From NCBI GenBank assembly GCA_027603945.1, contig JADIIU010000010.1, positions 1 to 64,000 on the forward strand: a stretch of 64,000 bases of DNA, given 5' to 3'. The notes beneath the pieces are model-generated. The model ran no database searches, was not told the origin of the DNA, and saw nothing but the letters and a program-made list of their open reading frames with translations. The translations under genes and the position numbers were made by a program. This document shows positions 221-64,000 of the stretch, piece after piece; position 1 is the first letter of the stretch, and the number at the start of each line of letters is the position of its first letter. The DNA comes from Terramyces sp. JEL0728 (Eukaryota; Chytridiomycota; Chytridiomycetes; Rhizophydiales; Terramycetaceae).

Positions 221-1488
221 ATGTTTAAAAACTTTTATTTGATACACAGATCAGGAAAGACGGTATTTTCAAGAAACTTTTCCTCAGAGAAACTGGATCA
301 GAGCTTTGTAATTGTATTCGCTTCTTCTCTGTCCAACTTTTGGTAATAATCTGCTGACCAAGTAAAACACTGCTGAAGGAGCAAGTAAGAGAAGTCACTG
401 CCTTCAACAGCCGCATCTTCCTCAAAGAAATCGGTGATGTAAATATTTGTTGATTCAGTTTGTTATTTTATGTCACTGCGATTTACTAGTTGGTAGCGGA
501 ATGGTGCAAACGATATTATCGGATTTATCAGATCTATTACAAGTAGATATAGTTAACGTAGATGTTGTTTGGTCCTTGCAGTTTCTGGGACGGCGATTCT
601 GTCGTATTTGATGTCTCTGGAATTCACGATATCATGACAATGTACTTTACAAAAAACAATTTTGATCCCTTTGTAGTTACAAAGGGAATCAACCAAGTAC
701 AATATTCTAACTCAGTGTTTTATTAACCCGGAACTTTCAGATAAACTGGATCGACTATTAGGATCGATGGAGAGCCATCCTGGAATCTGCGGAAACGGAA
801 CCATGCTGCTATTGGGGAACTCTGTTCTCCATTCGCGTATGCCGTTGCAAGAAACTAGAAATGTAAATAGCTTTAACCAAGATTATGCAGTACTTGAAAG
901 CGAGACCATTGGGAAATTGCTCCACCAGATTCACCCCAATTCATTTAAATGACATGTGGCATGCGCTTTATACAATCAGAGTCCAAACTTTTGTGCTCTG
1001 TATCACCTGCTTCATTGAAGTTCCATTCAAATCTATCAGACCAGTTGCAAACATGTTTGAAATGTCGTTGATCCAATCACGGCTTGAAATTCCAACCACA
1101 GTATGCTATTTTAATGGTAGGAAACACCAGTTTTACTTCGGTTTTTCGCAAAGAGGGATACTTTGGCACTGCTGTATCACAATATCAAAACTGGGTACAC
1201 CCTATTCCCAGCATTGAGACCAGGACCGGAAATTCAGCTACAGCAAATATCCCACGAATTCTGGTCAATGTACTCTGAAGCAAGCGTTTACTTGAACCTG
1301 CCAGGTGTAACTGAGTTTTCAATAGTCCGAGACTCGTTTCAATTCTATGCAAAGTAAGTGACATTAATCGCAGGAGCGAAGGCATTCATAAAATATTCTT
1401 GCTGCTTGCTCAAGAAAGTGTGTCTACCAACGTGTCTACGATCGCAAATGAAGTGCTAAGGAACATCAAGAATCAGATTTCCTTATAA
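221..1488 (+). CDS. FUZ: FUZ-like planar cell polarity / ciliogenesis effector (FUZ/MON1/HPS1 longin family)
   Basis: Seven introns of 19-20 nt (343-362, 439-458, 543-561, 697-715, 863-881, 1101-1120, 1354-1373) join eight exons into 376 codons; FUZ is about 418 in human. The start MFKNFYLIHRSGKTVFSR fits the first longin strand pair of the family. The pattern LLQMLFG at about residue 100 resembles LLQMVFG of FUZ, and the C-terminus (KIFLLLAQESVSTNVST) fits the last longin domain. FUZ is known to act with Inturned in the CPLANE complex, which recruits intraflagellar transport proteins to the basal body. MON1 and HPS1 are homologous alternatives; the lack of a long acidic N-terminus argues against MON1. 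The stop codon overlaps an AATAAA signal. Intron assignment is strong because each splice keeps the frame; the FUZ label is by remembered similarity. Confidence 0.6.
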
Positions 1489-1575
1489 TAAACGTTACTT
1501 TAGCACTTTTGAAATCAATCCTTATCTCACACGCTGTAAAAGCAAAAACTTGCAATCTCATTTTTCAAACCTCAT

Positions 1576-4500
1576 ATGGACGAATTAGCGAGTAGTATAT
1601 CAACAACGTTAACAATGGAAAATATAGAATCGATAGCAGCCAGTTCGGTTATACAGGAAGCATCTCTGACCACTGCAGCAGTTGTAAGTTCAGTGACGGC
1701 TTCAGTCGACTCGCATATTGTAAATCCCGAAGGCGATAGTCTAGCCACGACAATAATCATTAAATTCTTCACGCTTGTATTTGGCCATGTTCCATGGACG
1801 ATTTATCGTATACTCTCGTACACTGTAACGGCTTCCATCACTCTGGATTTCTGGGCAATCATGTGGCTAACTACCCTATCGGTGATTGTGATTACTGTTT
1901 TCTACAGATACAAGCTTTACGCACAGTATGCTAGTCTTGAGCCGACGGATTCAAATCCTAGAACAGATTTCGATCTTAAGCCCGACATAGCGCTGGACGA
2001 GAACTTGAACACTCAAGGGTATCCTGGTAAGCTAGCACTTATATTAGATGATTTCATGAATGCCTTTTTGTCTTCAATCAAAATTTTTGGATATTTGGAT
2101 AAACCAGTGTTTCACGAACTCACTCGCCACTTACAAACTAGAAAATTGAAGGCTGGAGACCTGTTATTTGAAGAAGAGTCGTATGATAGAGACTTTGTAC
2201 GTTGTTTTAATTGTAGTATGTCGTTGTCGAAGGAAAAGTTCAAGTTTTTATCAAAGGACTGAAAGATGACGAAAATGAAATTGAAGTTGGGGAAGAAGGC
2301 GACAGTGAATGGGGTGGACATCACTTGTTGAATGAAGTGAAAAGTGGAGGAACAGTGTCGAGCTTATTTGCTATTTTATCCATTTTGTCTGAAGATTTGG
2401 AAATGCCTCAGCCTCTTGTTGCAAAGGTAGCAGAACGTCCAAAAAGCAGCCTCTCTGATACCAAATCTGAAAGTAGTGTAGATACAAACAAGGAATTGGA
2501 CGGACAAATGACTCCAATTGCAGAAGTGCCCACAGAAGGGAATAGTGCACCGTTTTCTGTGGACGGCGCATATCTCCAAGAATTAGATACTCCAAAGGTT
2601 GAAGAAAAGAAAACACCGGACAAACCACGGTCGGTTTACCCCAACCTTGTGGCACGAGCTGCTGCAAACACGACATTGGCAGTTATCCCCGCAGAAGCAT
2701 TTTACAAATTATCAGAAAAGTTTCCAAAGGCTGCTGGTATAGCATTTCCTAATTTAGCACATATGGCCCTTGTTATTTTGACCAGATTCCAAAGAGTTAC
2801 CTTTTTGACATTGCACAGGTACCTTGGGCTTTCAAAGGAGTTGCTGACTATCGAACAAAGAGTCAATGAAATTACCGGGTCAGGATTGCCGGCCGACTTG
2901 TTCCCTCCTGATCTGATAGAACAAGTAAGTTGGAGACTGTCGCACCAAAGAAAAGAGGAAGATACACCGTCTCCTCAATCAACAGATCTCAACTCAAATA
3001 TTGCAAATAACTCTCCAGTTCGAAGGGGGCCTCGTAGAACTGGAAGAAGAGATGATTTTGATATGGACCATGATTTTACGTTTGAAAACTACCGCAAATC
3101 ATTCCATGATGAATTCTCAGAAACGCACAGTCAAGCTTTTACCACTGGAGACCCAGATGAAAAAGTTCGTGATGCCATTTTTGCTTGTATTTCGCAGCTG
3201 ATTGGGTTTAACCTAAAAAGAGAGCCGAATAAAGATGCAGAAAAAAACAGGCATTTACGCACCAGCGTGATAGCAGCACAAAGCTCCGTAGAGCGGTTTT
3301 ATTATTCAACAAGAAGAAGTTCAATTGCTAGCACAAGTCACAGCCAAGATCGTAGATACATTGATCGAGATGATATTTCGGTGTCCAGCAGGGCTTCTTC
3401 CATCGGCGACGGAGATTTTAATGAGGTTCATGACTCTCCAGATATCGAATTGCTATATTTCAAGGAAGGAGAAATGCTGTTACGCGAAGGAGAACGATGT
3501 GGTATCTACTTTGTGTTGGATGGCACTCTTGAAACCTCGATTGATGCAACTCCAACGGATCAATTCATGTCTAGCAAAAACAAAAAGAAAGGAGGCAAAA
3601 AAGGTGTGTTCCTTGTTCGCCCAGGCGGTATCGCTGGATATCTTACTGCACTTACAAGCAATCTATCCTTTGTCAATATTCAGGCAAAGACGGATGTGCT
3701 TGTAGGATACATGCCAAAGCCGGTGCTGGATCGTTACCTTGAAAAATACCCAAATGCCCTTTTGTGCCTTGCAAAACGCTTGGTATGCCAATTGTCTCCC
3801 CTTGTTTTCCATATAGATGTTGCCTTGGAATGGGGACAAATAAATGCTGGGCAGGTGTTGTCGAAACAAGGAGATCCTTCTCAATCCATCTACATTGTGT
3901 TGACTGGTCGTCTTAGAAGTATCCGAGAAGTCAAGCAAGGTTCTACAAGCACGTTTGAAATCCAAAACGAATACGGCCACTCTGAATCGGTTGGAGAAAT
4001 GGAAGTATTAGTTGATGCTCCAAGAGCTAGCACTGTTCATGTACTGTTAATTTAACATTAGGCTATTAGAGATTCTGAAATTGCAATTATGCCAAAGACT
4101 CTTTTTAATGCATTGGCAATACAGCATCCAGATATTATGATTACTATTGGAAGGATGATTGCAACTCGTTCAGCGTCCGATATAAACTCGAAATTTGGAA
4201 ACGATAATGAAAATTTGAAAACTGTTGCGTTATTGCCTCTGTCTAATGATGTTCCAATTCTAGAGTTTGCTGAAAAACTGAATGAAGCCATTACGGAACT
4301 AGGCTCAAGCACTGCCCTGCTATTTCAGCGTGCAATCACCAGTCAGTTGGGAAAGCATGCATTCACCCGTTTGGGAAGGCTGAAATTGATTAGCTGGCTT
4401 GCCGAACAAGAAGAATCGCACAGGATTGTAGTTTATGTTGCCGATGGAGGTATTTCTTCCCCTTGGACACAAAGGTGTATTAGACAGGTAAAACTCGGTT

Positions 4501-5807
4501 GATTTTAGGCCGACTGCGTATTATTGGTCGGGCTAGGTGATGGCGATCCTTCCATTTGTGAAGTTGACCACAAACTGCTTAGTATGAAAACCACGGCCAG
4601 GAAAGAATTGGTATTATTGCACGAACAGCGATCAGTTACGCCTGGTACAACCGCATTTTGGTTAAAGCCTCGCAAGTGGATCCAGGCTCACCACCACGTC
4701 CAAATATCAATAGCTGCCCCTACAGCTTTGAAAATCAAGCAAAATCCGAAACAGATGACGTTTGGAAACCTTGGTGCACACTTCAAGAACTACTACTCTC
4801 AAATATCTCCAAAGAGCTCCACGTCTCCCAACATATATTCTGGGAACAGATCTGATTTTGCCAGAATTGCCAGAAGATTGCTCTCAAAATCTATTGGTCT
4901 GTGTTTAGGCGGAGGTGGTGCAAGGGGTATCTCTCATGTTGGCGTAATCAGGGCTTTTGAAGAAGTGGGCATCCCAATTGATATGGTTGGAGGGACTTCT
5001 ATGGGAGCCTTCGTTGGCGGGTTGTACGCAAGATCGAACGATCACGTCAGTGTTATGGGTCGAGCCAAGTTCCTTTGTATGAGGATGACTAGTCTGTGGA
5101 GGCAGATTATTGATTTGACATATCCTGTCACAGCGCTAATGACTGGAAATGAATTTAATAGGGGTATTTGGAAGTGTTTCCTGGACACGCAAATCGAAGA
5201 TTGCTGGTTGCCATATTTTGCAATTACCGCAAATATTACACATTCCACAATGGGAGTTCATCAGCACGGCTATATGTGGAGGTTTGTTAGAGCTTCAATG
5301 TCACTTTCTGGCTACCTACCACCACTGTGCCACGATGGATCCATGCTTATGGATGGCGGCTATTTGAATAATGTTCCTGCTGATGTAATGAAAAACCTCG
5401 GAGCCAGATATGTAGTTGCAGTTGATGTTGGTAGGCCAGATGACACATCCCCAACCACTTATGGTGATTCATTGTCTGGATGGTGGGTTCTATTCAAGCG
5501 ATTTAACCCATTCGGAAAGAACTATGGTCAAATTCCAACTGTCAGCGACATTCAATCGAGACTAATGTATGCTTCTTCTGTTCCTCGTTTAGAAGCAATC
5601 CAAAAACTTGAAGGCTGTCTTTATATAACACCTCCTGTTCAAGGCTATGCTATCATGCAGTTTGGAAGCTTTGCAGAAATCGAACAAGTTGGCTACGATT
5701 ATGCAAGAAAGATGATACAAGCGTGGAACGATGAAGGCATCCTATTCGAAAGATTTGGTGTGAAATTGGAACGAAACACAGTTACAAACAGAAGAGCATC
5801 AATTTAA
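1576..5807 (+). CDS. NTE1: Patatin-like lysophospholipase NTE1 (neuropathy target esterase family)
   Basis: Introns 2197-2216, 4041-4061 and 4488-4508 (20-21 nt) give a protein of about 1389 residues, close to PNPLA6 and yeast Nte1. Two membrane segments lie at about 64-110. Cyclic-nucleotide-binding-like domains follow (around 175-260 and in the middle third, for example FVLDGTLE and YIVLTGRLRS). The patatin domain is C-terminal: glycine-rich oxyanion loop LCLGGGGARGISHVG near 1090, nucleophile serine in GTSMG near 1118, catalytic aspartate in DGGYLNNVP near 1240. The junction reading STVHAIRD across the second intron is a family signature. The enzyme deacylates phosphatidylcholine and lysophosphatidylcholine at the ER. 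The linker between the regulatory domains is long and charged. The first ATG gives the expected N-terminus. Identification is firm. Confidence 0.95.
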
Positions 5808-6697: not shown

Positions 6698-7101
6698 GTT
6701 TTTGGTAAAACAGTTCACCAATTTATAATAATTTTTTGGCCAATAGCAAATTCCTCGCATGCTGTGCCTCAAAAATGTTGATTGGATGGAAATAGTGTAA
6801 AGTACAGGAATAAATGCCGGAAATGCGCAGAGTATAAGGAATGCTAGTTGTTCCCAACTTGGGGGAATGGTTTTGCACGATTAGAGGCTTTAACTCCAGA
6901 ATGTTTGCATTTGGGCGAAGTCGATATCGATGACGGAATATCTAACACGCCTTCGGCGGTTGCACAAGAAAAGAATCGTTTGGTATGGGCAGGTACTTGC
7001 AGCATATCGTCATCGTATACCTTGACAGATTTTCCATGGGTTGAACTGAATTATTGAGCAGGACGTTAGCAAGTTACCAGGTAATAAACTGAACATATAT
7101 A
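6698..7101. other. Intergenic region between two secreted-protein genes
   Basis: About 400 nt between the SOD start and the stop of the next minus-strand gene. It should hold the SOD promoter. A plus-strand open stretch (6848-7057) lacks an ATG and no set of 19-23 nt introns gives it one, so no gene is called. Confidence 0.5.
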
Positions 7102-8061
7102 TTAAACACGACATGCATTTTGAACATTACTCCACTGTTTTTGGACGGTATAAGATTTACCATCACCACCAACAACCACTCCGGTTTGTTGGTTGCACAC
7201 ATCGCCAATTTCGCCACAGCTTCCTTGCTTCAAGTCAAACCACCCATTGTTTTCACTATCAGGGTCAGTTACAGCTTCGATAAGTTCATGCGAAGCCAAC
7301 GCGCACAAGTTTTCCCAAGCATTTCCTGTTCCACAGCCAGAGGTGCATTTCCCACTTTGGTCAGGAACTACTCCAAAGTAAACCTGAATGCCATTGGCGG
7401 TGGCAAAGTTGGTATGATACGCACACCACTCAGTGCACATACCTCCCAGTTCAATCCCCTCACTAAGATGAATAGGATAGTAAGTATTTTCATTTGGGCT
7501 GATTAATTTCTTGGCAATCAAAGCCTCAAACAATTGCTGGATATCCGAATCAGTCAGCGAATTCTTTAAACCATCTGTAACAACAATTGGTGTCTGCACA
7601 GTCCCACGTCCGATCGTACCTTTATCTGTTTTGTATTCTGAAAGCCAATCCATATAAGTAGAATTGACGATCCCTTGATAATATCCATAGATTTCATTTG
7701 CATATTTCAATTTACCGTAATAAATAGGCACCACTTCAACATGAGAAAGCACAGGTCCGCCCTTCCATTCAAGTTTAACATCTTTGTATTGAGTTCCAGA
7801 GATGTTGATATCAAAAGAAGCGGCATCATAGGTAGCTGCAAAATACGTTGCCGATTGTGCAACCATTTTTGATCCCATCTTTACTCTATTCTTTGAATTA
7901 TGCTTGGAATGTGGCCGGCTAGATTGTCGGCTATTGTGGTATTGCACACCCGAATATCTGTTGTCGTAACTTTGTACATCCAGGTCCGAGTCATAACTAA
8001 ATTGCGCATATCGATGACGGTCGTAGGCGGATACTAACGGAAGAAGGAGGAGAGATTTCAT
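7102..8061 (-). CDS. Secreted exordium-like / zincin-like protein
   Basis: 319 residues from the start MKSLLLLPLVSA, which makes a signal peptide; the upstream in-frame ATG adds an implausible leader. Residues 12-65 are a Tyr/Asp/His-rich spacer. The body carries VVPIYYG near 95, IGRGTVQTPIVV, then CTEWCAYHT, VYFGVVPDQSGKC and the motif ASHELIEAVTDP followed by GWFDL and GEIGDVC. The SHExxEAxTDP pattern is known from bacterial, plant (EXORDIUM / phosphate-induced protein 1) and fungal extracellular proteins and resembles a zincin metal site, although proteolytic activity is not established. Six or more cysteines in the second half suggest disulphides. It probably acts in the cell wall or outside the cell. 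Family assignment is by motif only. Confidence 0.7.
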   Translation of the reverse strand: MKSLLLLPLVSAYDRHRYAQFSYDSDLDVQSYDNRYSGVQYHNSRQSSRPHSKHNSKNRVKMGSKMVAQSATYFAATYDAASFDINISGTQYKDVKLEWKGGPVLSHVEVVPIYYGKLKYANEIYGYYQGIVNSTYMDWLSEYKTDKGTIGRGTVQTPIVVTDGLKNSLTDSDIQQLFEALIAKKLISPNENTYYPIHLSEGIELGGMCTEWCAYHTNFATANGIQVYFGVVPDQSGKCTSGCGTGNAWENLCALASHELIEAVTDPDSENNGWFDLKQGSCGEIGDVCNQQTGVVVGGDGKSYTVQKQWSNVQNACRV

Positions 8062-8236
8062 TATGTCTAGGAAATTTTCAAAGTTTTTATAGACCACTCA
8101 GCCGCAATACCTGAGATTTGGGCAAAGTACCAACAAATGTGGATACTCTAAAGGACAATATAGGCGTAGCATCAGTTTATAGTGACCAAGGTGAGTTCAA
8201 TAAGAATTGCCGGCACATGATTATTCTTTCTGAAAA

Positions 8237-8993
8237 ATGTGGATCCCTTTGGAAGCTAATCCAGAAGTGCTCAACAAGGTAATACAGAGTAACGCAGTAT
8301 ATCAAGCAGCTAGGAGTGAATTCGCAACTTGAATTTCAGGATATCTGGTCGTTAGATCCAGAAATGTTGGTGATGGTCCCTAAACCTGTTGGAGCATTGC
8401 TGCTCCTGTTTCCAATCACAGAGAATGTAATGCAATACTAAAAAAGTTTCGAAAAGAAAGAAAAGAAAAGTTGGAGTCGATTGAAAAGCACGGACAGCAT
8501 GTATCTCCAAAATTGTATTACATGAAGCAGACAATTGGAAATGCCTGCGGGACTATTGGATTAATACACGCCTTGACAAACACTTTGGAATACTCTGATA
8601 TGGGAACTGGAGCGTTCGCGTCTCTTTATAACAAGTCTATTCATGCGTCCCCAGTTGAACGAGCAGGGATCCTCGAACAGTCAAAAGAATTGGCCCAGAT
8701 CCACGAAACAAAGTATTCTTTTTTGACTCTAGCTCTCTTGCAGGCCAGACTGAAGCACCGCCTGCTGAGGACGAAGTGAACTTGCACTTTGTCGCGTTTG
8801 TAGAAAAAGAAGGATATTTATATGAAATGGATGGAGATCCAGGTGTTCCAATTTGCCATGGCAAAACCACTGACTTGCTAGCAGATGCTGCCAAGGTTAT
8901 CCAAACCAGAATCGCAAATTCTGAAGGTGACCTTTTCTTTACATAGATAGCACAAACTTTTCAGTAATGGCATTCGCAAGTCCGCCTGAATAA
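8237..8993 (+). CDS. Ubiquitin carboxyl-terminal hydrolase, UCHL3/YUH1 type
   Basis: Introns 8279-8297, 8427-8446, 8713-8732 and 8927-8946 give about 225 residues, the usual size for the peptidase C12 family. The start MWIPLEANPEVLN matches the UCHL3 N-terminus. The catalytic cysteine lies in QTIGNACGTIGLIHA, the catalytic histidine in VNLHFVAFV, and the aspartate in YEMDGDPGVP. The splice at 8713-8732 restores the crossover loop (GQTEAPPAEDEV). The last exon restores the typical ending (NFSVMAFASPPE). The enzyme removes small adducts from the C-terminus of ubiquitin or NEDD8. The fourth intron begins GTGA rather than the usual GTA. AATAAA lies a few bases beyond the stop. Confidence 0.93.
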
Positions 8994-9169: not shown

Positions 9170-9681
9170 ATGAATATTTCAAGAAGCATATCAGGTAAAT
9201 ATTGTTGATTTCAGCTCCTACGATCGCTGTTAAATACCTCTTTCAAAGGTTAAAGATACCTGTCGAAATTACAATTTTAATATTAAAGTACGCCAAGATA
9301 TACAATTTGGTGGAGTATGAAACTCACCAGGAATCGCTATTTGATTTCAAATACTTGTCGGTACCGCCTGTACAATATCTATCCAAAATTTTCAAGATTG
9401 TTATCACCGCAACCGGCAATCAAGTCGATGAAAACCCGAAACTAAAAACTTGGACCTGGATTGAGATATGCTTAGTTAAGCCCAATGATACCCTCCGGAT
9501 GCAAGTATATTGCGCAAACATGAACAGTTTCGTACCGTATTATCAAGTGGTATTGGATCAAAGTTGTCCGCTGGTAAATTCAGCAACTAATGCCGACAGT
9601 GTGTGTTTTTGGGTGCGGTCAATGTGCTTTGGTAAAGCACAACAATTATCTATTGCTAAAATTCAGATATATTATCATTAA
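9170..9681 (+). CDS. Small unknown protein, possibly F-box-like
   Basis: One 20-nt intron (9195-9214) joins a short first exon (MNISRSIS) to the main exon, giving 163 residues. Not firmly recognised. The N-terminal stretch LKIPVEITILILKYAKIYN resembles an F-box helix pair. The C-terminal half (WTWIEICL, SVCFWVRSMCFGKA, AKIQIYY) resembles a beta-rich domain seen in uncharacterised fungal proteins; this is a recollection, not a search result. The stop codon lies inside AATAAA and only 6 nt from the stop of the convergent TFB4 gene. Confidence 0.65.
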
Positions 9682-9687
9682 TAAAGT

Positions 9688-10552
9688 TTATTGTGCTTCT
9701 TCAGTTTGACAGGTTGGACAAACCTGACTTGGCTTGCAAAATACTAGGATTAACAACTATTACTAGATAAACAAACGCTACATACAAATCCCATGTCGAT
9801 ATTCCTTTTATGACAGAAACATGTTGCTCGGAAATCAATCTTGTCATTTTTTGGGAGTGTCAACATTGATCTGCAATCCGAATCGGCTAAAAATAGATAC
9901 TAAATTATCGAAAATTACCAGCAGGCTGTGAATCAACTCATTTTTATCCTGGAGTATCGCATAAATCCCATGGGTAAGCGATGCAGCTTGGGCTAGATAT
10001 ATAGAAGGAGTATCTGTCAGCCTGCAAACATCGATGGGTATTTCCTTTATCAATCAATCAATTACTGCTCTTTGTGCTGCAAACATTGCATTCATCATTG
10101 AAATGTGCTGGGCAGAATCATCCTTTGAGCTTGAAAATACAATTATCCTGGACAGAAAAGATCCTTCAGTCCTTACTTTGAGTTTATTAACCAGTGTCAA
10201 TGCAGTTGAAATTGCTCCAGAGAGTTTTGGATAATTGGATTGGCTTGAGTATTTCTGTATCGCTTCCTCCAAACTCTTTTCAATCTGAGTATCAATTGCA
10301 TGAAATTGCGTATAAACATTCGCTGGTCTCGTATTCGAAATTTCCAAGTCATCTCTTGGATATAGAATGGAGTTTCCTCCAGTGTTTGATCCAATGAACA
10401 GTAATTCATTCCCATGTCTGCATTAGCGATGGATACCTCTGACTTTGGTGTGCATGTATAAACAATATAATCTGCTCCAGAGCAGACAAATCAGAGAGCA
10501 GGTCCAAGATTACAATCAGCAAACTTCCTCCAGTTGAGATTTCCAAACCCAT
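9688..10552 (-). CDS. TFB4: TFIIH core subunit TFB4 / p34 (GTF2H3)
   Basis: Four introns (10418-10436, 10045-10065, 9900-9918, 9744-9763) give 261 residues. The N-terminal vWA-like domain begins with SLLIVILDL and continues through NELLFIGSN and LYPRDD. The body reads SGAISTALTLVNKL and SRIIVFSSSKDD. The C-terminus carries the cysteine-rich zinc region (CFCHKRNIDMGFVCSVCLSI followed by CPTCQT) typical of p34. The protein is shorter than human p34 because the loop after the first strand is reduced. It binds p44 in TFIIH, for transcription initiation and nucleotide excision repair. The start was chosen at the methionine just before the vWA strand; an upstream methionine would overlap the divergent gene at 10600. 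Confidence 0.93.
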
Positions 10553-26295: not shown

Positions 26296-26400
26296 TTCAC
26301 AATTTAAAAAATTTCAAACAAATTGTGCTACAGTAAACGCAACCAACTTTATTCTCACGATGAGCCATTGCTTCTCGGAACATTGCTTGAAAGGACAGAC

Positions 26401-41920: not shown

Positions 41921-41963
41921 TTCTATTAAAAAACAAAAATTATCACCTGATTTGATTACAAAA

Positions 41964-42370: not shown

Positions 42371-42526
42371 TTTAGCAAAAATACTTGGGAATCCAACAGA
42401 TGATTGCAGAGAATACTGCTAGTAAACAGCTGCGAAAGGAATGCACAACGGAGGAGATCTTTACCCAGTAATCATAGTACCTGATTAAAGATCCACAGAT
42501 GATAATATCATGTAAATTTGCTTTAT

Positions 42527-50774: not shown

Positions 50775-53056
50775 ATGGGGCATGTCACTATTCTCGTCCA
50801 GCATGCTTGGCAAATAAGATCCTCCAGACGACAAAAGAACGGAAATCCGGTGAGCTACAATTTCGACAAGAACATTGCGAACATTGGAAGAAGTAGCTCT
50901 CCACAGTATCTCTCGCCGCTCTATCCAAAACCGCTTGCTTCGTATGTACGAGTTACTGTTCCATCTTCAATAGCTCAATTGGTCAAGTACTATAATTCTG
51001 CGGATACTTTGGAAAAAAAGAGCGAATGCGAAGCTGCATGTATGGACATTCTGGACAGGCTGCAGCACATAATACTAGCTTCAAATATTCCGGATAATGT
51101 TAGAGTGGATAAGATGAGACAACAACTAGGAGGAGGCAAAGACGGATATTCATACAAGACAAAACTGAATCCTAAACAAAAACCAAAGCAAGCAGAAAAG
51201 GCTGCAAATATCGAGCAAGTAGAAAGAGTTCGGAGCTATTCATCCGAATCTAGAATCTCTGTGGTAATGCTGGCAAGATGTCGGTCGCAAACTATTCGTA
51301 CTCAGTCGATGCTGTTGCTATGTGAAGCTCTGGACACAAATGCCTTATCGACTTGCGACCATGAAATTATGCACTTGCAGATGCTTTGGGTTGAATTGGT
51401 CCAGATGATGAGGCACGTAATAGACGCTAGAAAAAGGAAACTGGCTCTTGGCGATACAAAGCACACTCTTAATGAAAGCGGAATCCTTATTGATAAGGAT
51501 GGTCAGCTTGCCAGCAATGAACCTGACACTAATATCATGGTAGATGTTTATTTAGAACATTTGCTGACTTGCTTGAACTTGACGCTGCAAAGATTGGAGC
51601 ACGCACAGGACGTTGGTAAAGTTATCCAGCCTTCACCTTTGATGGAGGAATCTTATTTGTGTTTATTGGAAGATTTAGAATTATTGAAGACTGATGATCC
51701 ATTTGTTATTCACCTTATCAGTGAAATTGTGCTGCAGGTAGAAGATTTACAAAGCTTGATAGTATTGCAAGGAAAATCTAGAAAGGAGATGGCATTGGAT
51801 GTTGGGGTTTCGGTGCTGAGCCAGGTAATTAGAATGAATTCTCCAGGTCCAAACATAAAAATGCAACATCAGTTTTCGAATATATTACAAGGACTGGCCG
51901 ATGTAAATCAGTGGCATCTGGGAAGGAAATTGTTGCGGCTAATTGCAACTTCTGCCTGCATTGATGTGGAAACTTGTAAAATATTCAACACATTGGTCAG
52001 GGAATTGGGAAACTACAGCTGGAAATGGCAATATTATGCAATACTGTGCTTGGGCACGGTTGTTTGTAGCTCAGACTTTCCAGCTTGCAGGAAAATCGCT
52101 CTCGAAGAAGGAATTATACCCTTCCTATCTTTTGGGCAAGTCAAAGAAGACAGTAATTGAATTATAATCTAGACATACTAGCAAACCAAGGGCTAGATTG
52201 GCTTATTAGATCGGCTGCGGTGATGGTTTTATCCGAAGTATATCAACAGTATCGAACACAACCCCATGGTTTATTGGCTCGAGAAAATATAAATACCCGT
52301 CTAAAAAGCGAAAAACACTCTATCGTGCTGCAATTATTGAATTCGCCCAAAGCCAAAACACCGCAAACAAACTTTATGAAGCGAATTCAGTTTTTATTCA
52401 AATATACTTCAACTTCCTTTGCCGAGATCTACGCTGAGATACAAAGCGATTACCAATACATGCGAAAGTATATCCAAACTGCAGAAAAAGACGAAAAGAG
52501 ACAGAGAAACAAAAGAGCAAGAGCAAAAAGAGGTTTGCGAAACACATTGCTTCTCAACTCCAAGCCTTTAATAGAAGCATATAAAAATACTGAAGCGCCA
52601 TTTTCAAAGAAGGATGCGGTTGATTCAAAATATTTAGCAGGCCCGACACCAGAACCAGCAAAATTATCTACAAGAACAAAGAACATTAATTTTGTAAATT
52701 TGTCAAATATTCAACTCGCCACTGGTGGAGATTACCATAAAAACTACAAGAGTGTCGTGTTGGAACCAAGAGTCCCAAATGAAAACTCTTCAGCCGGGGA
52801 TAAACAGGAATTTTTAGAGCTGTTTGACATGCCTGATAAGAGAGTCCCGCTGCCCCCCTTGACTACATCTCTTTTAACAAAGCACCACACATCTCCAGTG
52901 AAAATCAGTAATACACACGAATATGGAACTGCAAATCGAAGGAAAATGTTTAATGCAGAGAAGCCGGCAGTCGCAGACCCCAAAGAGGAGCTGAAAGCCC
53001 ACAAAGCTACTATAAAGATGCCTCAAGTCCCTCAGTTCTTAATTGGGAGTCAATAA
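50775..53056 (+). CDS. Large helical protein of unknown family
   Basis: One 20-nt intron (52153-52172) gives 753 residues. Not recognised. Residues 1-450 are helix-rich and armadillo-like in texture (SIAQLVKYYNSADTLEKKSE, SQTIRTQSMLLLCEALDTNA, KIFNTLVRELGNYSWKWQY), with lysine-rich inserts. Residues 550-590 are strongly basic (KDEKRQRNKRARAKRGL). The tail is Pro/Lys-rich and probably disordered. No membrane segment. In a genome that keeps a FUZ-like gene, a ciliary role is possible but there is no direct evidence. The stop lies inside AATAAA. Confidence 0.75.
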
Positions 53057-54407: not shown

Positions 54408-57400
54408 TTAGATGCTCTCAAAATCGTGTATATCGCCAGAGTACTTTCTCCCAGAGAGCAAGTCTGGCTGACCGTCCTTTTCTGCTGGTCTTTGAATAAC
54501 TTTTGCTTGAGAAGCTAGCGTATGCGCACTGGCTAAACGTTTAAAAACATCCGCCCCTCCTAAACCGCCCAGCTCTGTTCTTTTTCTTGTCTTCGGTTCG
54601 TCATCGAGAGAATCACTTTTGGCCAGACTATTGGCACTATCGCAGCGAGATTCTTTCATAAATTCAATTGGCTCTTCCTTTTGAAACAAACTGTTCAGTT
54701 TTGGGATAACCCTGCTGAATGTAGACATCTCCTTTTTTGGTGATTGCGACCTATCCTTTATGACAACTGGTGAGACTATTATATCCCTGCTTGCGATCAG
54801 AGGTCTGCCCCGGAATGATCCAGTATCGCTCGCGTCTTGTGTAGTTGTGGATAGCGATATTGGTTTGACACCAGCTTTTCGTAACGGGGAGGGAATTCTG
54901 AATATTGGGTTGCTGGAGGCAGTTTCATCGATAAAGTTAGAATTGCCAAAGCTCAGTTTTTGCGAAATAGGATTGCTATTTGGAACCAGAGGTTTTGAAG
55001 ATATTGGTCTTTGAAGAGTGTCCTCCTTCTGGAGTGCTTCTTTGATATTCACTTCTTCAACAACTGTGGAATTGCTAACGTCCCCCTGGTCTGTATACAT
55101 ATTAGATTGATCTTCTAGGGATTGAATCACCGGAACAAATAATGTTTGTTTCGAGTCCTCTGCTTGCATTCGTTCATCCAGCATCGATTCTTGGATTTCC
55201 TGAATTTTCTGGCGCAAATTGGAAATCGCATTCTCTTTTTCCGTGATATCTTCCATATATTCTTCTTCCAAAGTACGAAGGTTAACCAAGTCCTCCAAGA
55301 AATAAGTAGTTGCAGATTCCAATTCAAGTCTGTCAAGGGATTTAACAAGATTCAACGCATTGTCCCAACTTAGCTCCACAATCGAAGAAGGATCTGCCAA
55401 TTCCACAGGAACGGAATCCCCATCCAGTATCCCACTGTTTCTTCGCAAGTTATCTTCAAGCGAAACCATTTGGTTGTCAATACTAGTGATTTCAATATCT
55501 ATCGCTTGTACTCTTTCGTCCATATACTGAGGGGATTTGTCGTCGAGGAACCCTGTTGCTTCATAATGTGCCTGCACGACCCTTGATCTTTCGGCGATTA
55601 GCTCTTTCTGTTCGCCAATCAGTCTGTTTCTGCACTGCTGTAGTTTTTGCAGCGTCTTTTGAGTCTTTCGACAGTTTACAGTGGCAGCAAGTTCCTTGTC
55701 AATCATTTGCTTTTTGAATTGGGCATGAATTTCCACAGATGGATGCACTTCAGTAAATTTCTCAGAGATAGAGAGCCTTACTGGGGAGTTTACACTTGCA
55801 AGTGCTTCATTCATAGAGCCTGCGAATCCAATCTTTCGGCCTGGTCTATTGTGTGTAGGGGAAGCAAATCCTGATGCAGCCGTGGATTTGAAAATTTTAT
55901 TGGGGGTTGCTGAGCGCTTCAACAATGACATTACTTTTTGTAATTTGTTTTGTGTCTTGTTAAATTCTTCTGTTCGCTTCTTTAGCATTTGCCGTTGAAG
56001 TTGGTTGCTTTTCTCCAATCTTTTTGCAGTATCGACTGCATTCTTTTCTTTTCGGCGCAACTTTGAAATTTCTCTAAGGCTTGCTGTTTGAGAATCCCGG
56101 TGCTTTTGGTTCTGTATCCGCAAATCCTGTAGCATTCTCATTTTTTCAGCTAGTTGTTAAACACCAGCTACCTTTAAGGGAAGAAATTGTAGCTTGCAGC
56201 TCCTTGGTGAGCATATCATTTCTGGATTTGCTATTCGATTGCATTCGTGAATTCTCTCCCATTTTCCTCTTATATACATCAATCTGCGAGTCCAATCTTT
56301 TCTTTTCTTCGTCAAACCTTGTCTTGGCTGCATTTCGCTGCTGTGCTGATCCAGAACTAGTCCCAAATTTGTTCAGCGCCATATCTCTTTCTTTTTGTAT
56401 TTGGGAAAGTTGGTTTTGAAGAATTTTCAGTTTCGATTCATAGGCTTTTTGCATAACTTCATATTCGGTGTCTCTCTTTTGAATTCGCTCAACTAGGGCT
56501 TCATGCTGGGCAATATCGTTTTGGATTTTGTTGATAATAAGATACACATCAGGATCATCTCCTTCGTGGTTCTGCTCCATTTGACTATCTTCATCCGCAG
56601 CAAACGAGCTGCTGAAAGTTTCCTAAATTAGCTGAATTTACTTTTGATTGCATTTCTTTTAGCTCTTTCAGTGGGTTGTTGACCGCGTCCCTAAATTCAA
56701 TATTTTCTCTCAAAGCCTTCATGACTTCACGTTCTCTGGAGAAATCGGATATCTCCTTATCCTCTGTGTCAAGTTGATCAACACGGGCAATCAACGGCTT
56801 TTTTGGAATATTGAACGATTCAATGTCATTCTCGGACCATGCAGCTTTTGGTTTGACGGATTTACTGCCAAGTTTCGACATTGCTTCGTTTTGCCATGCA
56901 AGCCGGTCTTCACATTCAGACAATTGGTATTTTAATTTCGCAATGGTGGCAGTGTAGTCTTGAATTAAGCGAGAGTAATCATCGCTAGTCTCGTTTTCGC
57001 CATTTGGCACCGGAGAAGGATCCCTAGATCTTCGCTGTTTTTTCTTTGGCGCATCTGTGTTTTGCTGATACCAATTGTTGTATTCCTCAGTGGTCTCGCA
57101 TGATTCATTCGCAGCATTCTTTAGCCCTTGACTAGCAGACTTTGCTAGATTTAGTGCGTGGCATTTTCCAGCTACAGCAAGGTCTCTGTCGGTGGATAAC
57201 TCTAGGTTTTCTTTTGAAAGCTGTTTAATTTTGTCAGTTAAGCGGGCTGCAATAAATTGAAATTTTTCTAATTGGAAAAGGTAGTTGGTAGAATTGACTT
57301 TTAACATATCAATTTCAGATAGGAAATCTCGTTCTCTTCTTTGGCGATAGTTATGTTCTCTTTCGCTTAAATGCTTGAGATTTTCTTGTGGGTTTACCAA

Positions 57401-58680
57401 ATCTTCAACAACTACATTTGAAAGTCCTCCAGCCCTAATCAGAGCAATTTCTGTGCGCAATTGCGATATGGTTGCACGCAGCGCCTTAATTTCCCGTTGA
57501 GCTTCTCCACCAGAACTTCCTGCCCAGTCTTGGTTAACCGCAACTTTATTCTTGATATTTCTCGCTCTATTTGCGTAGTGAAGAGTGTTGACTGTTTCTC
57601 CGTAGTTCAAATCGCTAGGACTGACGCACGCCAACATCAAGGTCTGGCTGTTTCCTCCTAAACTGTCTTGCAACATCCTTGTCAGTTTCGAATCTCTATA
57701 AGGAACGTGTCCAGTTTTTCTACTTTCGTCTCCAAGCGCTGAAATCACATTTCCAAGAGCTAGCAGCCCCTGATTGATTGAAATCCCCTCCTTTTTGCGA
57801 TCGCCTTCGGCATTTGTGCGTTTTAATCGTTCTGAACCAGCAAGATCAACAAAATGAAATTTGGAAAGCAAAATCTGATTTAGGGCTGATCCCTCTTCCA
57901 TGCCTCCAGCTATCACTTGCTTTAAAGTCACAGTAAAAATTGCATGAGATCTAGAGGAGGAGGCATTCATATCCGTCGAGCCAGTTGTTCGACACAGTGT
58001 TCCTCGCTGTAACACACTAGGTTAGCTAAACTTACTTTAGCAGTTCTTCCGTAGACGTGACAGCTTCTTCGGAAAGGTTCTGCCAGACTATCTTCCCCGT
58101 CCCGTCTTCTCTAATTGTAGGGCCACTTGGTGCAGACCTTGGTCTACTGTGTAGGAGGTCAATTAATTCTTCGTTATACAGCTCCATAAATGATACAGTC
58201 ACTGTTGCTTCATAGGCGGGATTTTCATTCTTTATCTTATTAATATACGCAAAAATAGCGTTGATTGCTCTTGGAACGATCCCCTGATTAGCAGGATCGC
58301 CGGCTGAATTAATCCCTTCTAGTCCAATACCCATTGAATATGTTTTGCCAGATCCAGTCTTTGTTAGCGTAAAGTACCTGTCCATATGCCAATATCGTGG
58401 CATTAAATCCTTCCAAAAATCGCTGAACGAGCTGATAAACACTTTGATCAAATAGAAACTCTTGCGATGTAGATTCATCAAACAGGTAATCAAAGGTGAA
58501 TGATTTTTGAGTAAAAGCATACACGGTATCTGTCCCTACACCACAACCTGGTCCTCCGCCAACAACAATCTGTTGAGTTCCTGGAATAATCTCCACGCAC
58601 TCGGAGGAATTTGCTAACAGTTCTTTTGCGGCCATGGGCCTTACCCTTACCGCTACTTTTACTGAAGTTGTCGCCGACAT
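54408..58680 (-). CDS. Kinesin-4 family motor (chromokinesin / KIF21 / KIF27 type)
   Basis: Introns 58359-58377, 58017-58035, 56623-56641 and 56150-56171 give 1397 residues. N-terminal motor at 1-350: [11 protein letters not shown]-loop [14 protein letters not shown] (restored by the first intron), switch [12 protein letters not shown], switch [16 protein letters not shown], neck RARNIKNK. Motor details ([38 protein letters not shown]) are kinesin-4. Residues 360-1050 are coiled coil. The tail is Ser-rich. Members bind chromosomes or control microtubule length in spindles and cilia. The subgroup cannot be fixed by eye; no WD repeats, so not KIF21. The stop overlaps AATAAA. Confidence 0.93.
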
Positions 58681-58880: not shown

Positions 58881-60120
58881 CTATATGCTAAATCTATTTA
58901 GTGTGGACTCTTTGGCTGCACCTGTCAATCCGCCTTTTGCGTCTCGCACGATATCCTTCAATCCGTAGAAATAATCATTCATCAGCATCTTGGCCATGTA
59001 TAAAGTGATGAGATTCACAGTGATCTGTACTAGAACTACAGTTAGAATGGCTTACCAAAAGAAGTCATCCAAATGATCGTAGGTTTGAATGTGGTAGAGT
59101 ATGGGCCGTAAGCAATGATTAAAACCGCGCTTAGCCAGATAATATTCAGACAGCCAATCACGATAAAGGCGAATGTGAGGCTTCTAATAGCTTTCGTTAC
59201 GGAAAAATATCCAAGGATGTGATACAACACAGCGAGCAACAATATTATTCCACAGGCAAACTTTTCAACCGTGCTTGTATCAGCATTTTTCAGGTAGTAA
59301 GAGATGCTAAACTGCAGCAACAAGCCTAGAAAAAAGTACGAGTTTAGTTTCAGTAGCAGAATGAAAATCTGATATTTTTGGAATATTTCTAGGTCAGTTT
59401 GATTGCTACTTTTCTTGTGGAGATCCGCACCTTGTTTTATAAACTCATCCCATCCATAAGACTGGTATACCTGCAGGCAAATGTAGAGGCCGACCAGACA
59501 ACTCAGCATCATGATTACTGAGACAACAATCTGATAAGTGTAAGTGGTATCAAAGATGTGAAGATTGTCTTGTATCCTATCAGCAACAAATGTCAAGTTT
59601 TGTTGGATTGAAGCATTTGACCAGTTTGAAGGGTGGTTTAGCGCGCTGAAAAAGCAAGAATTATCCAGCGCTTTCAGCTGTGGAATCATTTCGTTCAAAG
59701 TCTTTTTGTCTTGGACTATCTCTGTATATTGAATCGCACAGTTTTTGAGATTTCTGATTTGATAGAACTGGATAAAGGAATAAATAACTGTCATGATGTT
59801 AAACACGGTGATTGCTACGACTGATATTAAACCAAAGTACCTTGAATGGGATTTCTTTGTATGTTTGCGTCAACCGCCCCAATAAGTTGGAATATCAGTC
59901 CCACTATGAACAGGGCAAAGTAAGTCAAAATCATCGGCGATGCTCCAGCATATTCTACGGTGAAATATCAAGTACGTTGTTGGAATGTTAAAGTCAAAAA
60001 ATCCGATATGTTTTTTATAATTACAGACTCCAGGATGGACACAATGACGCAAATCAATATTGACAGGATGGTATTATAAAAGGGCCAATTCGATTTCCCT
60101 CGTATCTTGAGAGAGTCCAT
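58881..60120 (-). CDS. UPF0658 Golgi-type multi-pass membrane protein
   Basis: Introns 59955-59975, 59821-59840 and 59036-59055 give 392 residues. About seven membrane segments: NTILSILICVIVSILESV, ILTYFALFIVGLIFQLIG, VVAITVFNIMTVIYSFIQF, YQIVVSVIMMLSCLVGLYI, then four more. The pattern NPIQVVAITVFN with QFYQIRNL recalls the fungal UPF0658 family described as Golgi membrane proteins. Function unknown. Two Asn sites (NWSNASIQQNLTF) in the loop at about 145 could be glycosylated. Confidence 0.7.
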
Positions 60121-60256: not shown

Positions 60257-61139
<883 letters not shown>

Positions 61140-61167: not shown

Positions 61168-63502
61168 ATGGATTTGCAGTTGAATTTCGACCTAAATGAT
61201 AAACCAACCAACAATATTAATGTGACTACTGTTCTGAATACTCTTAAAAAAGGAAATTGGAGAAAGAGGAGAACAGACGCAAAACGGATAGTTGGGAAAA
61301 AAACTGGAGGACCTTCAACGCAGACAAATCCTAGTCAAGCTGCTCAGCAACCTTTTAAGAGAAAGACTCCGACTGGACCACCCCGCGAGGAAGTTAAACC
61401 AGGATTTTCTTCATCAATCTTTACAGCAAACCCAGATTTACCCGTCCGTCAGAAAAAACCAGCAGTAAATGAAAAAGTTACAGCCCCTGCTGTAGATTTG
61501 AAGGAAACGGAAAAGACAGAAATGAAAGAGCAGGTGTCCCAACCTGAATGCAATTCTGATTTTGGTAGGCTAGGATTGCACACCTTGCTGGTGAATCACT
61601 TGAAGAAGCTTAATATAACCACAGCGACTCAAATTCAGCAGAGTTCTATTCCAAAACTAAGAAATGAATTTAGCAAGGATATCATCATTCAAGCACAAAC
61701 TGGTAATATCTAGATAATATGATAGGCTCGGGCAAAACCTTTTCGTTCCTGCTACCAATAGTAAATCAGCTTTTGATTGCCGCTTCGGAACTGGAAAACG
61801 TTCATGGTCCTGAATTCTTTACTCGTGCTACAGGATCATTTGCAATCATCCTAGCTCCTACTCGAGAATTAGCACAACAGATTGCAAATGTGCTGGAATC
61901 ATTATTGAAATATACAATTAGCACATCAGAATTTGGTAAATCATTTAAACACTGGATTGTTTCTGGTATACTTGTTGGTGGGGAAAGCAAGAAATCCGAA
62001 AAAGCAAGACTAAGAAAGGGGATAAATGTGCTTGTTGCTACACCTGGTAGATTGTTAGATCATTTAAGAACTACCGAATCATTTATTACAGGAAATTTGC
62101 GATGGCTGGTGTTGGATGAAGCGGACAACTTGTTGCATCTAGGATTTGAAGAAACCCTACGTGATATATTAAGAATATTGAACGAAAAGGGCAGGGCGGC
62201 TATAGAAAATGGAGGTCGAGCCAAAATCAAATACCTGCCATTCGAAAGACAGACTGTTCTTTGCTCAGCTACAATTGAAGGAGGAGTGCAAAAGCTCGCT
62301 GAAGAGTCGTTAAGAGACCCGGTATTCATCAAAGCAGAAACCAAAGAAGCAAATTCTTCAGATAAAGAAGAAAAGGAATCTTCAATTTCGATTCCGAAAC
62401 AATTGGGACAGCTGTATGTTCTGTCACCTGCCAAATTACGTCTTGTGAACATGATTGGTTTGATTAGAAAGGTATTCACAGTTTAATCTAGGTTACCAAT
62501 TCCGGAAAAGTTCCAAGGAAAATTATAGTTTTCTTGGCAACTGGCGACTCTGTTGACTGGCACTTTGATATCCTGGCCAGAATTGCTGAAATGCAAAATT
62601 CTGAAAATGATGATCAAGATTTTGAGTTTGATCCTGAAGCCGAGACCAAACCTGTCGAATACAATGACTTGCCAAAATTGCGTGCTGGTTATGATGCTAA
62701 ACACTTGCCCAATTGCAAGCTGTTCAAATTACACGGTTCAATGCAGCAATCTGAAAGACACGCAGTTTACACTGGATATTCCCCGTCTTCAAACTATACA
62801 AAAATTCTACTTTGTACTGATGTTGCAGCCCGTGGTTTAGATTTGCCAGATGTATCTGATATTATCCAATATGATCCACCTGCTGATGTTCGTGATTATA
62901 TTCACCGTATTGGAAGAACAGCCCGTTTAGGCAAAGAAGGTCAGGCATTTATATTTTTATTGCCAAGTGAAGCAGAGTACCTGGATTTATTGGAAGACTA
63001 CAACTGTCACGTTACTGAAGAGCCAATGATTCCACTCTTGGAAATGCTGACACCTCTAGCAAATTCAAAAAAGACAAAACATCAAAAACACTCCTTCCAC
63101 GAAATAGCTGCAACTGACGTACATATGGAATACGAACGGTTTGTGCAATCAACTCAACCAGTAAGTACTTGCTTATTTTAGAATCTGATTCATGCACAAA
63201 AGGCATTCTCCTCGCACATTCGAGCATATACAACCCATATCGCATCGGAAAAACACATTTTTCATATTCGTAAACTGCATTTAGGCCATTTGGCAAAATC
63301 TTTCTGTCTTCGCGAAGCACCACAGCAACTGCAGTCGAAACTGGGCAACCTGGCCAAGACCCTGCACGAAAATGATCTAGCTAGTGGTGGTGGCATCACT
63401 GCCAGCTCGATGAAGCGCAAAGCAAACCAAATGGCAAAGAATGCAATGGTCAGTGAATTTGCTGACGGCAACATTGCTCAATTAATGAAGAAAAGAAAAT
63501 AA
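61168..63502 (+). CDS. DBP7: DEAD-box RNA helicase DBP7 / DDX31
   Basis: Introns 61703-61725 (23 nt), 62472-62491 and 63161-63181 give 756 residues, close to yeast Dbp7 (742). The basic N-terminus contains [14 protein letters not shown], as in Dbp7. Q motif [10 protein letters not shown], motif [12 protein letters not shown] (restored by intron 1), Ia APTRELAQQ, Ib [77 protein letters not shown] long acidic insert follows motif IV, typical of this family. The C-terminal [17 protein letters not shown] and [18 protein letters not shown] match. Needed for 60S ribosomal subunit assembly. Confidence 0.94.
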
Positions 63503-63586
63503 ATTCTAATTTAACCGTTGAAATCTCGTTTAACCAATCTTTTTAGCAATTTAATTTGGTTATGCCTAAAACTAACTTTCCTTTTC

Positions 63587-64000
63587 ATGTCGTCATCTGG
63601 ATTGCATGGCCAAAAGCGAGAACACCAAACGGAAGAGCAAAAGCGACAGAAATTTGAAGCTGAAAAGGAAAAAATCAAAGAGTATTGCGGGCTGGATACA
63701 CTACTATTCAACAATGTATCCACCATTAACTATAGAGAAAAGAAAACAATCACAGTAGGGATGCACTACTAGAAACAACTAAAATGTTGTCAACCAACCC
63801 TGAATACTACACTGTATGGAATTACCGTAGAGAGATACTGGCTTCAATGTTGCCGACACTGGATCAAGAAGGGCAGCAAGAGACCTTGAAGCAAGATTTG
63901 TCACTATTAGACGCTCTACTCCTCAGGGCACCTAAATCCTACTGGGTGTGGAATCATAGAAGGTGGGTCCTGGAAAATATGCCAACCAAGCAATACGATA
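63587..64000 (+). CDS. BET4: Rab geranylgeranyltransferase alpha subunit (BET4), 5' part
   Basis: The gene runs off the right edge. One 20-nt intron (63716-63735) joins MSSSGLHGQKREHQTEEQK to the second exon; about 131 residues are visible. Protein prenyltransferase alpha repeats are clear: YYTVWNYRREIL and SYWVWNHRRWVLE. The N-terminal GLHGQKR and KYGLD-like stretch (KEYCGLDTLLFNNR) fits RabGGTA rather than farnesyltransferase alpha. It attaches geranylgeranyl groups to Rab GTPases with BET2 and REP. Confidence 0.9.

Follow-up and report, generated by a model that had tools for sequence, protein, structure and literature searches.

The bulk of the introns in the genome of the chytrid Terramyces sp. 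JEL0728 are confirmed, at the level of DNA sequence, to be ultrashort and narrowly distributed in length across the sampled contigs. Very probably they belong to the ordinary U2-type (major) spliceosomal class and have been reduced almost to a geometric minimum in a chytrid nuclear genome. In the main sample of 29 contigs, representing ∼2% of the genome, 432 of 455 calls measure 19-24 nt, and such introns were seen on 29/29 contigs, which extends to a wider sample of the genome an observation first made on a single window (the whole 64,000-nt stretch of DNA analysed).

Intron lengths in the window and across the genome

In the window, an ab initio gene finder called 94 introns, 90 of which are 19-23 nt long. 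Lengths are distributed as 17 nt (2), 19 nt (20), 20 nt (45), 21 nt (17), 22 nt (7), 23 nt (1), 26 nt (1) and 85 nt (1). The 90 tiny introns fall into 24 gene-sized clusters grouped from the gene models, with a peak at 20 nt, compared with the ∼85 introns of 19-23 nt in 25 genes claimed by the first-pass annotation. If retained, 86/90 would cause a frame shift or a stop; the other four, all of 21 nt and given below with their genes, leave the frame open and are less certain for that reason. The 26-nt (7135-7160) and 85-nt (7046-7130) calls look spurious, as they overlie the last part and end of an intact 331-residue frame (7105-8097), and a 17-nt call (63814-63830) was left out of the gene-model count. 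No credible longer intron was found within the window.

On the forward strand, a gene model at 221-1488 contains seven introns of 19-20 nt (343-362, 439-458, 543-561, 697-715, 863-881, 1101-1120 and 1354-1373) and an NTE/patatin-type phospholipase gene (1576-5807) contains three (2197-2216, 4041-4061 and 4488-4508) together with two of the less certain, frame-keeping calls (2027-2047 and 2737-2757). The same strand carries gene models at 8237-8993 (8279-8297, 8427-8446, 8713-8732 and 8927-8946) and 9170-9681 (9195-9214), a gene read as a UPF1-like helicase and split over two models (17128-19085; 17768-17789 and 18338-18357), and a prolyl oligopeptidase (POP, family S9) that forms one open frame with an M13 peptidase (19554-23776), whose introns (19692-19712, 19995-20013, 20366-20385, 20680-20700 and 21507-21526) were compared with homologues. 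Further along are gene models at 44806-45279 (45081-45099 and 45166-45185) and 50775-53056 (52153-52172), a 6-phosphogluconolactonase family gene (49952-50703; 50592-50611), a gene read as a DEAD-box helicase (61168-63502; 61703-61725, 62472-62491 and 63161-63181) and a model at the window end (63587-63935; 63716-63735).

On the reverse strand, introns occur in gene models at 9701-10552 (9763-9781, 9900-9918, 10045-10065 and 10418-10436) and 24229-26295 (24594-24612 and 24716-24735), in a MIZ/SP-RING gene (26401-28473; 27576-27597, 27704-27724, 27836-27855, 28250-28269 and 28452-28473) and in an ABC transporter gene, A-type by reading (32352-35145; 32846-32865, 33367-33386, 33849-33868, 34077-34097, 34442-34461 and 35000-35019). 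Genes read as having VAP/MSP domains, more than one in number, occupy 35149-37471 (35542-35561, 37452-37471 and the less certain, frame-keeping 36369-36389). They are followed by a gene with an AAA_5 domain, VWA8-like by reading (37547-42342), which has 12 introns of 19-22 nt (37897-37918, 38049-38068, 38495-38516, 38606-38625, 38927-38946, 39196-39215, 39780-39800, 40085-40103, 40917-40935, 41947-41967, 42056-42075 and 42322-42342) and is fused with its neighbours in the gene-finder model 36934-43661. The strand continues with a class IV aminotransferase gene (42527-43661; 43498-43516), a gene model at 43843-44743 (44198-44216), a gene read as WD-repeat-like (45394-47688; 45918-45936, 46189-46208, 46513-46532, 47074-47093 and 47474-47493) and a model at 47735-49865 (48609-48627, 48745-48763, 48952-48971, 48993-49012, 49151-49170, 49270-49291, 49508-49527, 49819-49838 and the less certain, frame-keeping 49381-49401). 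The last three are a gene read as a kinesin (54408-58680; 56150-56171, 56623-56641, 58017-58035 and 58359-58377), a model at 58881-60120 (59036-59055, 59821-59840 and 59955-59975) and a gene read as tRNA (guanine-N7) methyltransferase-like (60257-61139; 60389-60409, 60671-60690 and 61001-61020).

The length peak is above chance. With a flat length prior of 14-400 nt, so that shortness was not presupposed, 91 of 154 GT-AG introns measured 19-23 nt, against 7-17 for each of eight other dinucleotide pairs (CT-AC, GA-TG, TG-GA, AG-GT, TC-AG, GC-AG, AT-AC and GT-AC), none of which has a length peak. An annotation-free count of donor/3′-site pairs over 264 kb gave 336 pairs at 19-22 nt for 110 expected, and the other eight bins, covering 18-400 nt, stayed between -20.2 and +13.2 from expectation. 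The same 264 kb yielded 388 calls in 162 gene models, among them 326 of 19-23 nt, or roughly two tiny ones for each model. The first-pass view of a fungal-side nuclear genome (here Chytridiomycota, Rhizophydiales, Terramycetaceae) with introns this small at such a density, a combination that it regarded as exceptional, is supported. In 21 further loci, 113/120 calls were of 19-23 nt. Among the 432 tiny calls in the main sample, 19 leave the frame open if retained.

Intron anatomy and spliceosome components

In most tiny introns, ∼8-10 free nucleotides separate a GTA donor from a TRAY-like branch site, which is followed by a tail of mostly 5-6 nt that terminates in YAG. TRAY lies 3-10 nt from the 3′ end in 384/432 tiny introns and is absent from the searched place in 48/432; where a single TRAY motif occurs, the branch A is at nucleotide 14-16 in 314 of 332 cases. 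Lengths of 19-22 nt are thus the sum of two near-fixed spacers (14+5, 15+5 or 14+6, 15+6, 16+6). By their GT-AG ends and branch motif the tiny introns look U2-type (major). AT-AC, the class by which U12-type introns were sought, shows no peak, its 14 calls of 19-23 nt being in line with the other non-GT-AG pairs (7-17). Removal of the tiny introns would proceed by intron definition, the spliceosome recognising the 5′ site next to the branch site. The predicted lariat measures 14-16 nt and its tail 5-6 nt. Since G at position +5 of the tiny introns is at background level, their recognition probably leans on GTA, the branch site and AG.

Several components of the machinery are encoded. U2 snRNA was found at 140 bits with its GUAGUA branch-recognition sequence intact, and the PROCN domain of Prp8 at 774 bits. 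U2AF65, for which the cut-off is 310.3 bits, matches in two pieces (251.7 and 27.9 bits) when unspliced and reaches 334 bits once four tiny introns are excised. A search of the genome gave no Rfam match for U1 snRNA. For U6 snRNA, three patterns were searched; one had zero matches and the matches obtained were no more convincing than reversed controls. Weak U6 matches at two loci (L009 and L010) were rejected, being near-identical duplicated stretches, read as coding sequence, without the AGC triad. The 11-mer ATACTTACCTG, used in the U1/U6 search, occurs 4 times against 12 for its reversed control; compared with Rfam at E up to 5, all four stretches were without a match, and one of them was read as a phospholipase C exon. 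The RED_N family had no match in the genome, a result that is uninformative because control genomes likewise lack one.

Restored proteins and alternative explanations

Spliced proteins align with their homologues, including bacterial ones. In POP, 5 junctions were compared with 12 homologues (5 chytrid, 7 bacterial) chosen among the 120 matches listed, and 4/5 lie in conserved sequence. In CCT-eta, 7 junctions of 20-24 nt were compared with 11 fungal proteins, 9 of which agree throughout; the two that disagree are the public Terramyces model and that of B. macroporosus, and their gaps look like annotation faults. The CCT-eta protein obtained here equals the public Terramyces sp. JEL0728 protein save for an 8-residue gap in the latter, which reads as though 6/7 tiny introns had already been spliced out. 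More generally, four of the six public Terramyces/Boothiomyces CCT models inspected are gapped or truncated (P0001, P0004, P0243 and P0244) and two are sound (P0241 and P0242). The faults lie mostly at Terramyces tiny-intron sites, and protein comparisons that use these genomes therefore need care.

These alignments bear on whether the segments are introns at all. Segments that break reading frames could be indel errors of assembly or base calling, or else frameshifts with which the ribosome copes. This is very improbable, as the segments have GT and AG ends and in most cases a branch motif, all set at near-constant distances, their length peak is confined to GT-AG among the dinucleotide pairs compared, deletion of the whole segment restores homology in POP and CCT-eta, and the public CCT-eta protein already dispenses with six of them. 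Internal eliminated sequences of ciliates are similar in size to the segments, so that elimination at the DNA level, or translational bypass, might be considered in place of RNA splicing. Such an origin is extremely improbable in a fungal genome that encodes U2, U2AF65 and Prp8 and whose segments combine GT-AG ends with a branch site.

A more tangible objection, though still an unlikely one, is that the introns are real but that their narrow spread is partly one of ascertainment, short introns being easily placed and many longer ones missed. Three ordinary-length introns were verified outside the window, of 54 nt in CCT-epsilon, 67 nt in CCT-gamma and 114 nt in CCT-alpha. They exceed the 30-nt limit of the first gene finder, became clear only upon homology inspection and make up 3 of the ∼42 introns read across seven CCT genes, a share above that of the ab initio sample. 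Moreover, recall of synthetic long introns was 62/100, so the ab initio route undercounts long introns. However, calls above 26 nt number 10/379 in the 264 kb sample, which at this recall gives ∼16 even if all are real, or ∼4% of introns. The annotation-free count over 264 kb has no motif-pair excess at 23-59 nt, and after excision of 336 tiny introns the residual calls of 27-400 nt number 11 for GT-AG against 10-17 for the eight other pairs. The first-pass annotation had named many genes with introns longer than 30 nt as the evidence that would count against it; no such abundance was seen in the calls, although a few longer introns are present. Its statement that no longer intron was needed anywhere is correct for the window and fails genome-wide, given the three CCT introns.

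The favoured reading, that of shrunken U2-type introns, includes a small class of ordinary-length introns that persists in the genome. Their absence is not strictly required of genomes with bulk ultrashort introns, because Paramecium also tails to 100 nt (PMC12862383). All three verified longer introns keep G at +5. CCT-eta introns of 23 and 24 nt indicate that introns of this size are real. A 53-nt candidate was noted in a plastin-like gene (L021). The 21 further loci also gave six candidate calls of greater length (85-377 nt), two of them being a single place in overlapping loci and one the window's 85-nt call repeated. Longer introns from the flat-prior self-training run were treated as artefacts, since they often start with a tiny intron. 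Hairpins in four longer introns, three verified and one candidate (z = -1.4, +0.3, -1.6 and -1.2), are too weak to claim.

Comparison with known systems

According to PMC6692369, the minimum distance between the 5′ splice site and the branch site in the human B complex is ∼50 nt; the same work accounts for the need for Smu1 and RED on short introns. Here 14-16 nt appears to be enough across a fungal genome. Tentatively, with the odds slightly against so full an account, the major spliceosome of Terramycetaceae would work at 14-16 nt between 5′ site and branch A, might have two modes (GTA, branch site and AG for tiny introns, +5 G for the rarer longer ones) and would belong to the first such fungal genome, independent of ciliates, nucleomorphs and mikrocytids. 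A literature search found nothing comparable for a fungus, and nothing on chytrid intron length was found in the accessible parts of PMC13391722, PMC11797018, PMC11649378, PMC3569864, PMC10639083 and PMC3629993. Introns of this size are otherwise known in a handful of cases among ciliates, parasites and the relic nuclei of algae, so the genome offers a new fungal test of the smallest removable intron, and a fungus with named, sequenced relatives (Globomyces, Batrachochytrium) opens the question of minimal introns to comparison and genetics.

The likeness to nucleomorphs and ciliates drawn by the first-pass annotation is apt, although the evidence supports a fungal nuclear genome that is neither. 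The closest length range is that of chlorarachniophyte nucleomorphs, with introns of 18-21 nt in a compact, intron-rich genome (as cited in PMC10245619). A nucleomorph, however, is the relic nucleus of an algal endosymbiont, whereas the nearest proteins here are those of Terramyces and Boothiomyces (Chytridiomycota). A search for placement by SSU rRNA gave no match. In the heterotrich ciliate Stentor coeruleus, GU-AG introns of 15-16 nt have their branch A at nucleotide 10-11 and a 5-nt tail, and 18% of genes have introns (PMC9505925). The Terramyces introns share the fixed place of the branch A, mostly at nucleotide 14-16, and the short tail of 5-6 nt, but they measure 19-24 nt, number about two per gene model and coexist with some ordinary introns in a fungus. 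The mikrocytids Mikrocytos mackini and Paramikrocytos canceri have uniform ultrashort introns of 16-17 nt in a nuclear genome, and M. mackini is a parasite with 224 introns in total and a reduced spliceosome (PMC10245619); here introns are far more numerous per gene, and U2AF65 and Prp8 are present. Paramecium has many, mostly ultrashort introns per genome, with a median of 24-25 nt and a spread of 15-100 nt in P. bursaria (PMC12862383), compared with which the Terramyces introns, with their mode of 20 nt, are far more tightly distributed.

Intron lengths in the window and across the genome

A two-strand gene finder, a self-trained codon-phase Markov model that permits introns of any length and so does not presuppose short ones, was run on the window and on 20 other contigs, each sampled by a single 10-kb stretch (264 kb in total), with controls in which GT..AG was swapped for other dinucleotide pairs. 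Under a flat length prior (9-400 nt) and no motif model, 54 of 114 GT-AG introns fell at 19-22 nt against 3-8 for five other pairs; a stricter intron rate under a flat prior gave 40 of 84 against 2-7, and a retrained coding model (flat prior, 14-400 nt) placed 91 of 154 at 19-23 nt against 7-17 for eight pairs, GC-AG and AT-AC included. Flat-prior self-training raised the total to 374 calls, 190 of them at 19-22 nt. The remainder holds many calls of 30-400 nt, which count against a naive reading of the length peak; a number of them open with a complete tiny intron (19-24 nt, GT-AG), and those that do are treated here as artefacts of the flat prior.

An annotation-free count, pairing sites at each spacing from 18 to 400 nt by donor and 3′-site weight matrices only, found 336 pairs at 19-22 nt where 110 were expected. 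Elsewhere the excess was −2.6 at 18 nt, −20.2 at 23-24, −7.9 at 25-29, +13.2 at 30-39, +0.3 at 40-59, +12.7 at 60-99, +1.6 at 100-199 and −14.3 at 200-400 nt, with the limits that matrices trained on 19-22 nt introns would let long introns escape if their ends differed markedly, and that a background averaged over 60-400 nt makes an even excess across that range invisible. A census of the 264 kb and eight chaperonin (CCT/HSP60) loci, under a mixed prior that gave tiny introns 95% of the weight and long ones 5%, yielded 455 introns, 424 at 19-22 nt and 432 at 19-24 nt, with 7 under 19 nt, 1 at 26 nt and 15 over 26 nt. Each of 29 stretches, on 29 contigs, held at least six tiny introns. The main sample represents about 2% of the 15.0-Mb assembly and was picked non-randomly, by contig number. 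At 21 further loci, by-catch of other searches that partly overlap one another and the window, 113 of 120 calls were at 19-23 nt, one at 26 nt and six at 85-377 nt.

The first-pass annotation had placed all window introns at 19-23 nt, and 90 of 94 finder calls bear this out; 86 of these 90 are frame-shifting or stop-bearing and four are neither. Its further statement that no longer intron was needed stands for the window, as far as can be told, and is limited to it by introns of 54, 67 and 114 nt in the genes for CCT-epsilon, CCT-gamma and CCT-alpha. At these junctions, chosen by the analyst, the proteins are gapless against solved CCT chains. The seven CCT genes read contain 39 tiny introns, including one stopless 21-mer visible only by homology, and these three longer ones. 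After excision of 336 tiny introns, GT-AG gave 11 calls of 27-400 nt against 10-17 for eight other pairs; finder recall of synthetic long introns was 62 of 100. Of the 379 calls in the 264-kb sample, 10 are longer than 26 nt, all as candidates only. A longer-intron share of about one to seven percent fits all counts. The three verified longer introns, in the genes for CCT-gamma, CCT-epsilon and CCT-alpha (loci L005, L007 and L008), carry AGATCT or GATC repeats, and the 54-nt intron holds a perfect 8-bp inverted repeat; their fold z-scores are weak.

Some window genes are intronless. Three such paralogues of 823-880 aa lie at 10600-13242 (+), 13515-16088 (+) and 28678-31149 (−); they are 98-100% identical across some 250 central residues, far less alike over most of the remainder, and alike again in the last parts. 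They share identical DNA runs of 272-360 nt, a sequence pattern that looks like gene conversion. The first, the only one scanned, had no Pfam match. At 24229-28445 (−), two adjoining MIZ/SP-RING-type genes, of which Pfam confirmed the one scanned, look like a tandem pair by the analyst's reading.

Junctions compared with homologues and public models

The window prolyl oligopeptidase gene (19554-23776, +) has five introns of 19-21 nt. An alignment set the product of splicing beside 12 homologues (five chytrid, seven bacterial) chosen from the 120 matches listed. Four junctions lie in conserved sequence free of any intron-sized insertion or deletion, although the last intron has a one-residue gap nearby in several aligned rows; the remaining junction, at residue 355, falls in a variable loop. 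The same open frame also encodes an M13 peptidase, with a stop-free join near 21731, which would mean either that the two are made as one fusion protein or that the second has its own start site. The CCT-eta gene on contig C27 has seven introns (24, 23, 22, 24, 21, 20 and 22 nt), and 9 of 11 fungal proteins agree at all seven junctions; the region around the last varies by one residue. For the splicing factor U2AF65, a six-frame search of the unspliced sequence gave a match broken into two parts, of 251.7 and 27.9 bits, and removal of four 19-20 nt introns gave 334 bits (cut-off 310.3).

Six public Terramycetaceae models were examined. Two Boothiomyces CCT-eta models (P0241, P0242) are sound. 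Our CCT-eta is identical to the public Terramyces sp. JEL0728 protein (P0243) save eight residues absent from that model, a gap directly after the last intron, which is 22 nt long; the AG that follows it is at 46 nt, a shift of exactly 24 nt. Elsewhere P0243 fits removal of the other six tiny introns, so that such introns are already present in public annotation, where no remark on them was found. The B. macroporosus CCT-eta model (P0244) has lost the exon that two tiny introns flank, from the third junction to the fourth, and has one extra residue at the last. Of the 120 CCT-beta matches listed, those from Boothiomyces and other Rhizophydiales come nearest. Together with the CCT-eta identity this points strongly to Terramyces sp. 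JEL0728 (Chytridiomycota, Rhizophydiales, Terramycetaceae) as the source of the DNA. Two Boothiomyces CCT-beta models (P0001, P0004) terminate in CAPR, the outcome, in the Terramyces sequence, of reading through a GTAATCC donor into TAA. In P0001 the counterpart of DKILQSISDSK is missing too, as though the right donor had been used with an AG 33 nt too far. Read from these protein models, the pattern suggests that Boothiomyces shares the Terramyces tiny introns.

Intron anatomy and splicing machinery

A TRAY motif lies 3-10 nt before the 3′ end in 384 of 432 tiny introns. Where several matched, the one nearest 5.4 nt was taken, which understates the spread. By this rule the branch A and tail are at 14+5 nt in 89 of 115 19-nt introns, 15+5 in 93 and 14+6 in 66 of 183 20-nt introns, 15+6 in 51 of 85 21-nt introns and 16+6 in 17 of 41 22-nt introns. 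Introns with a single TRAY, free of the rule, have A at nt 14-16 in 314 of 332 cases and a tail of 5-6 nt in 284 of 332. The lengths of 19, 20, 21 and 22 nt thus arise by adding two spacers that hardly vary. At the donor, information resides mostly in GTA, the commonest donor being GTAATT, and G at +5 (82/432) is at about background. All three verified long introns have +5 G (GTATGT, GTAAGC, GTAAGT), with a chance of about 0.007 at the tiny-intron rate; with only three introns and a test picked post hoc, this contrast is a lead only.

The genome encodes a U2 snRNA (140 bits) carrying GUAGUA, U2AF65 and the PROCN domain of Prp8. Rfam models and patterns identified no U1 or U6 snRNA in the genome, while U2 was strong. 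Fungal U6 genes may carry introns themselves; as only part of the first-look candidates were scored and control genomes also gave no U1 or U6, this miss is not read as absence. A weak U6 match in L009 and L010 (contigs C199 and C111) was rejected as false; the two are near-identical duplicated stretches with a longest identical run of 821 bases. RED_N had no match in the genome, nor in any control genome, so that this negative is uninformative.

Relation to known short-intron systems

In human B complexes, the separation of 5′ site and branch site calls for a distance of about 50 nt, and shorter ones are eased by Smu1 and RED (PMC6692369). Stentor introns place the branch A at nt 10-11 and end in a 5-nt tail; it has been proposed that clashes are avoided there because the branching factors close to the active site are poorly conserved (PMC9505925). 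Relative to these accounts, the predicted Terramyces loop of 14-16 nt falls between Stentor and human, and its tail nearly equals that of Stentor. On tiny introns, the extended U6-5′ site and U2-branch helices would be unable both to reach full length, which would fit the loss of +5 G, and the splice-site pairs would be defined together.

In Batrachochytrium, genes have about 4.7 exons each (PMC5364385); no intron-length figure for it was found in the literature looked through. Nor was a report of fungal introns this short found among the papers listed, most of them judged by title and opening of the abstract, with subscription journals largely outside. Available accounts of ultrashort introns give 16-17 nt in mikrocytids, 18-21 nt in nucleomorphs and 15-16 nt in heterotrichs (PMC10245619), and a median of 24 nt in Paramecium bursaria (PMC12862383). 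By phylogenetic position, the Terramyces tiny introns are filed as a case independent of these groups.
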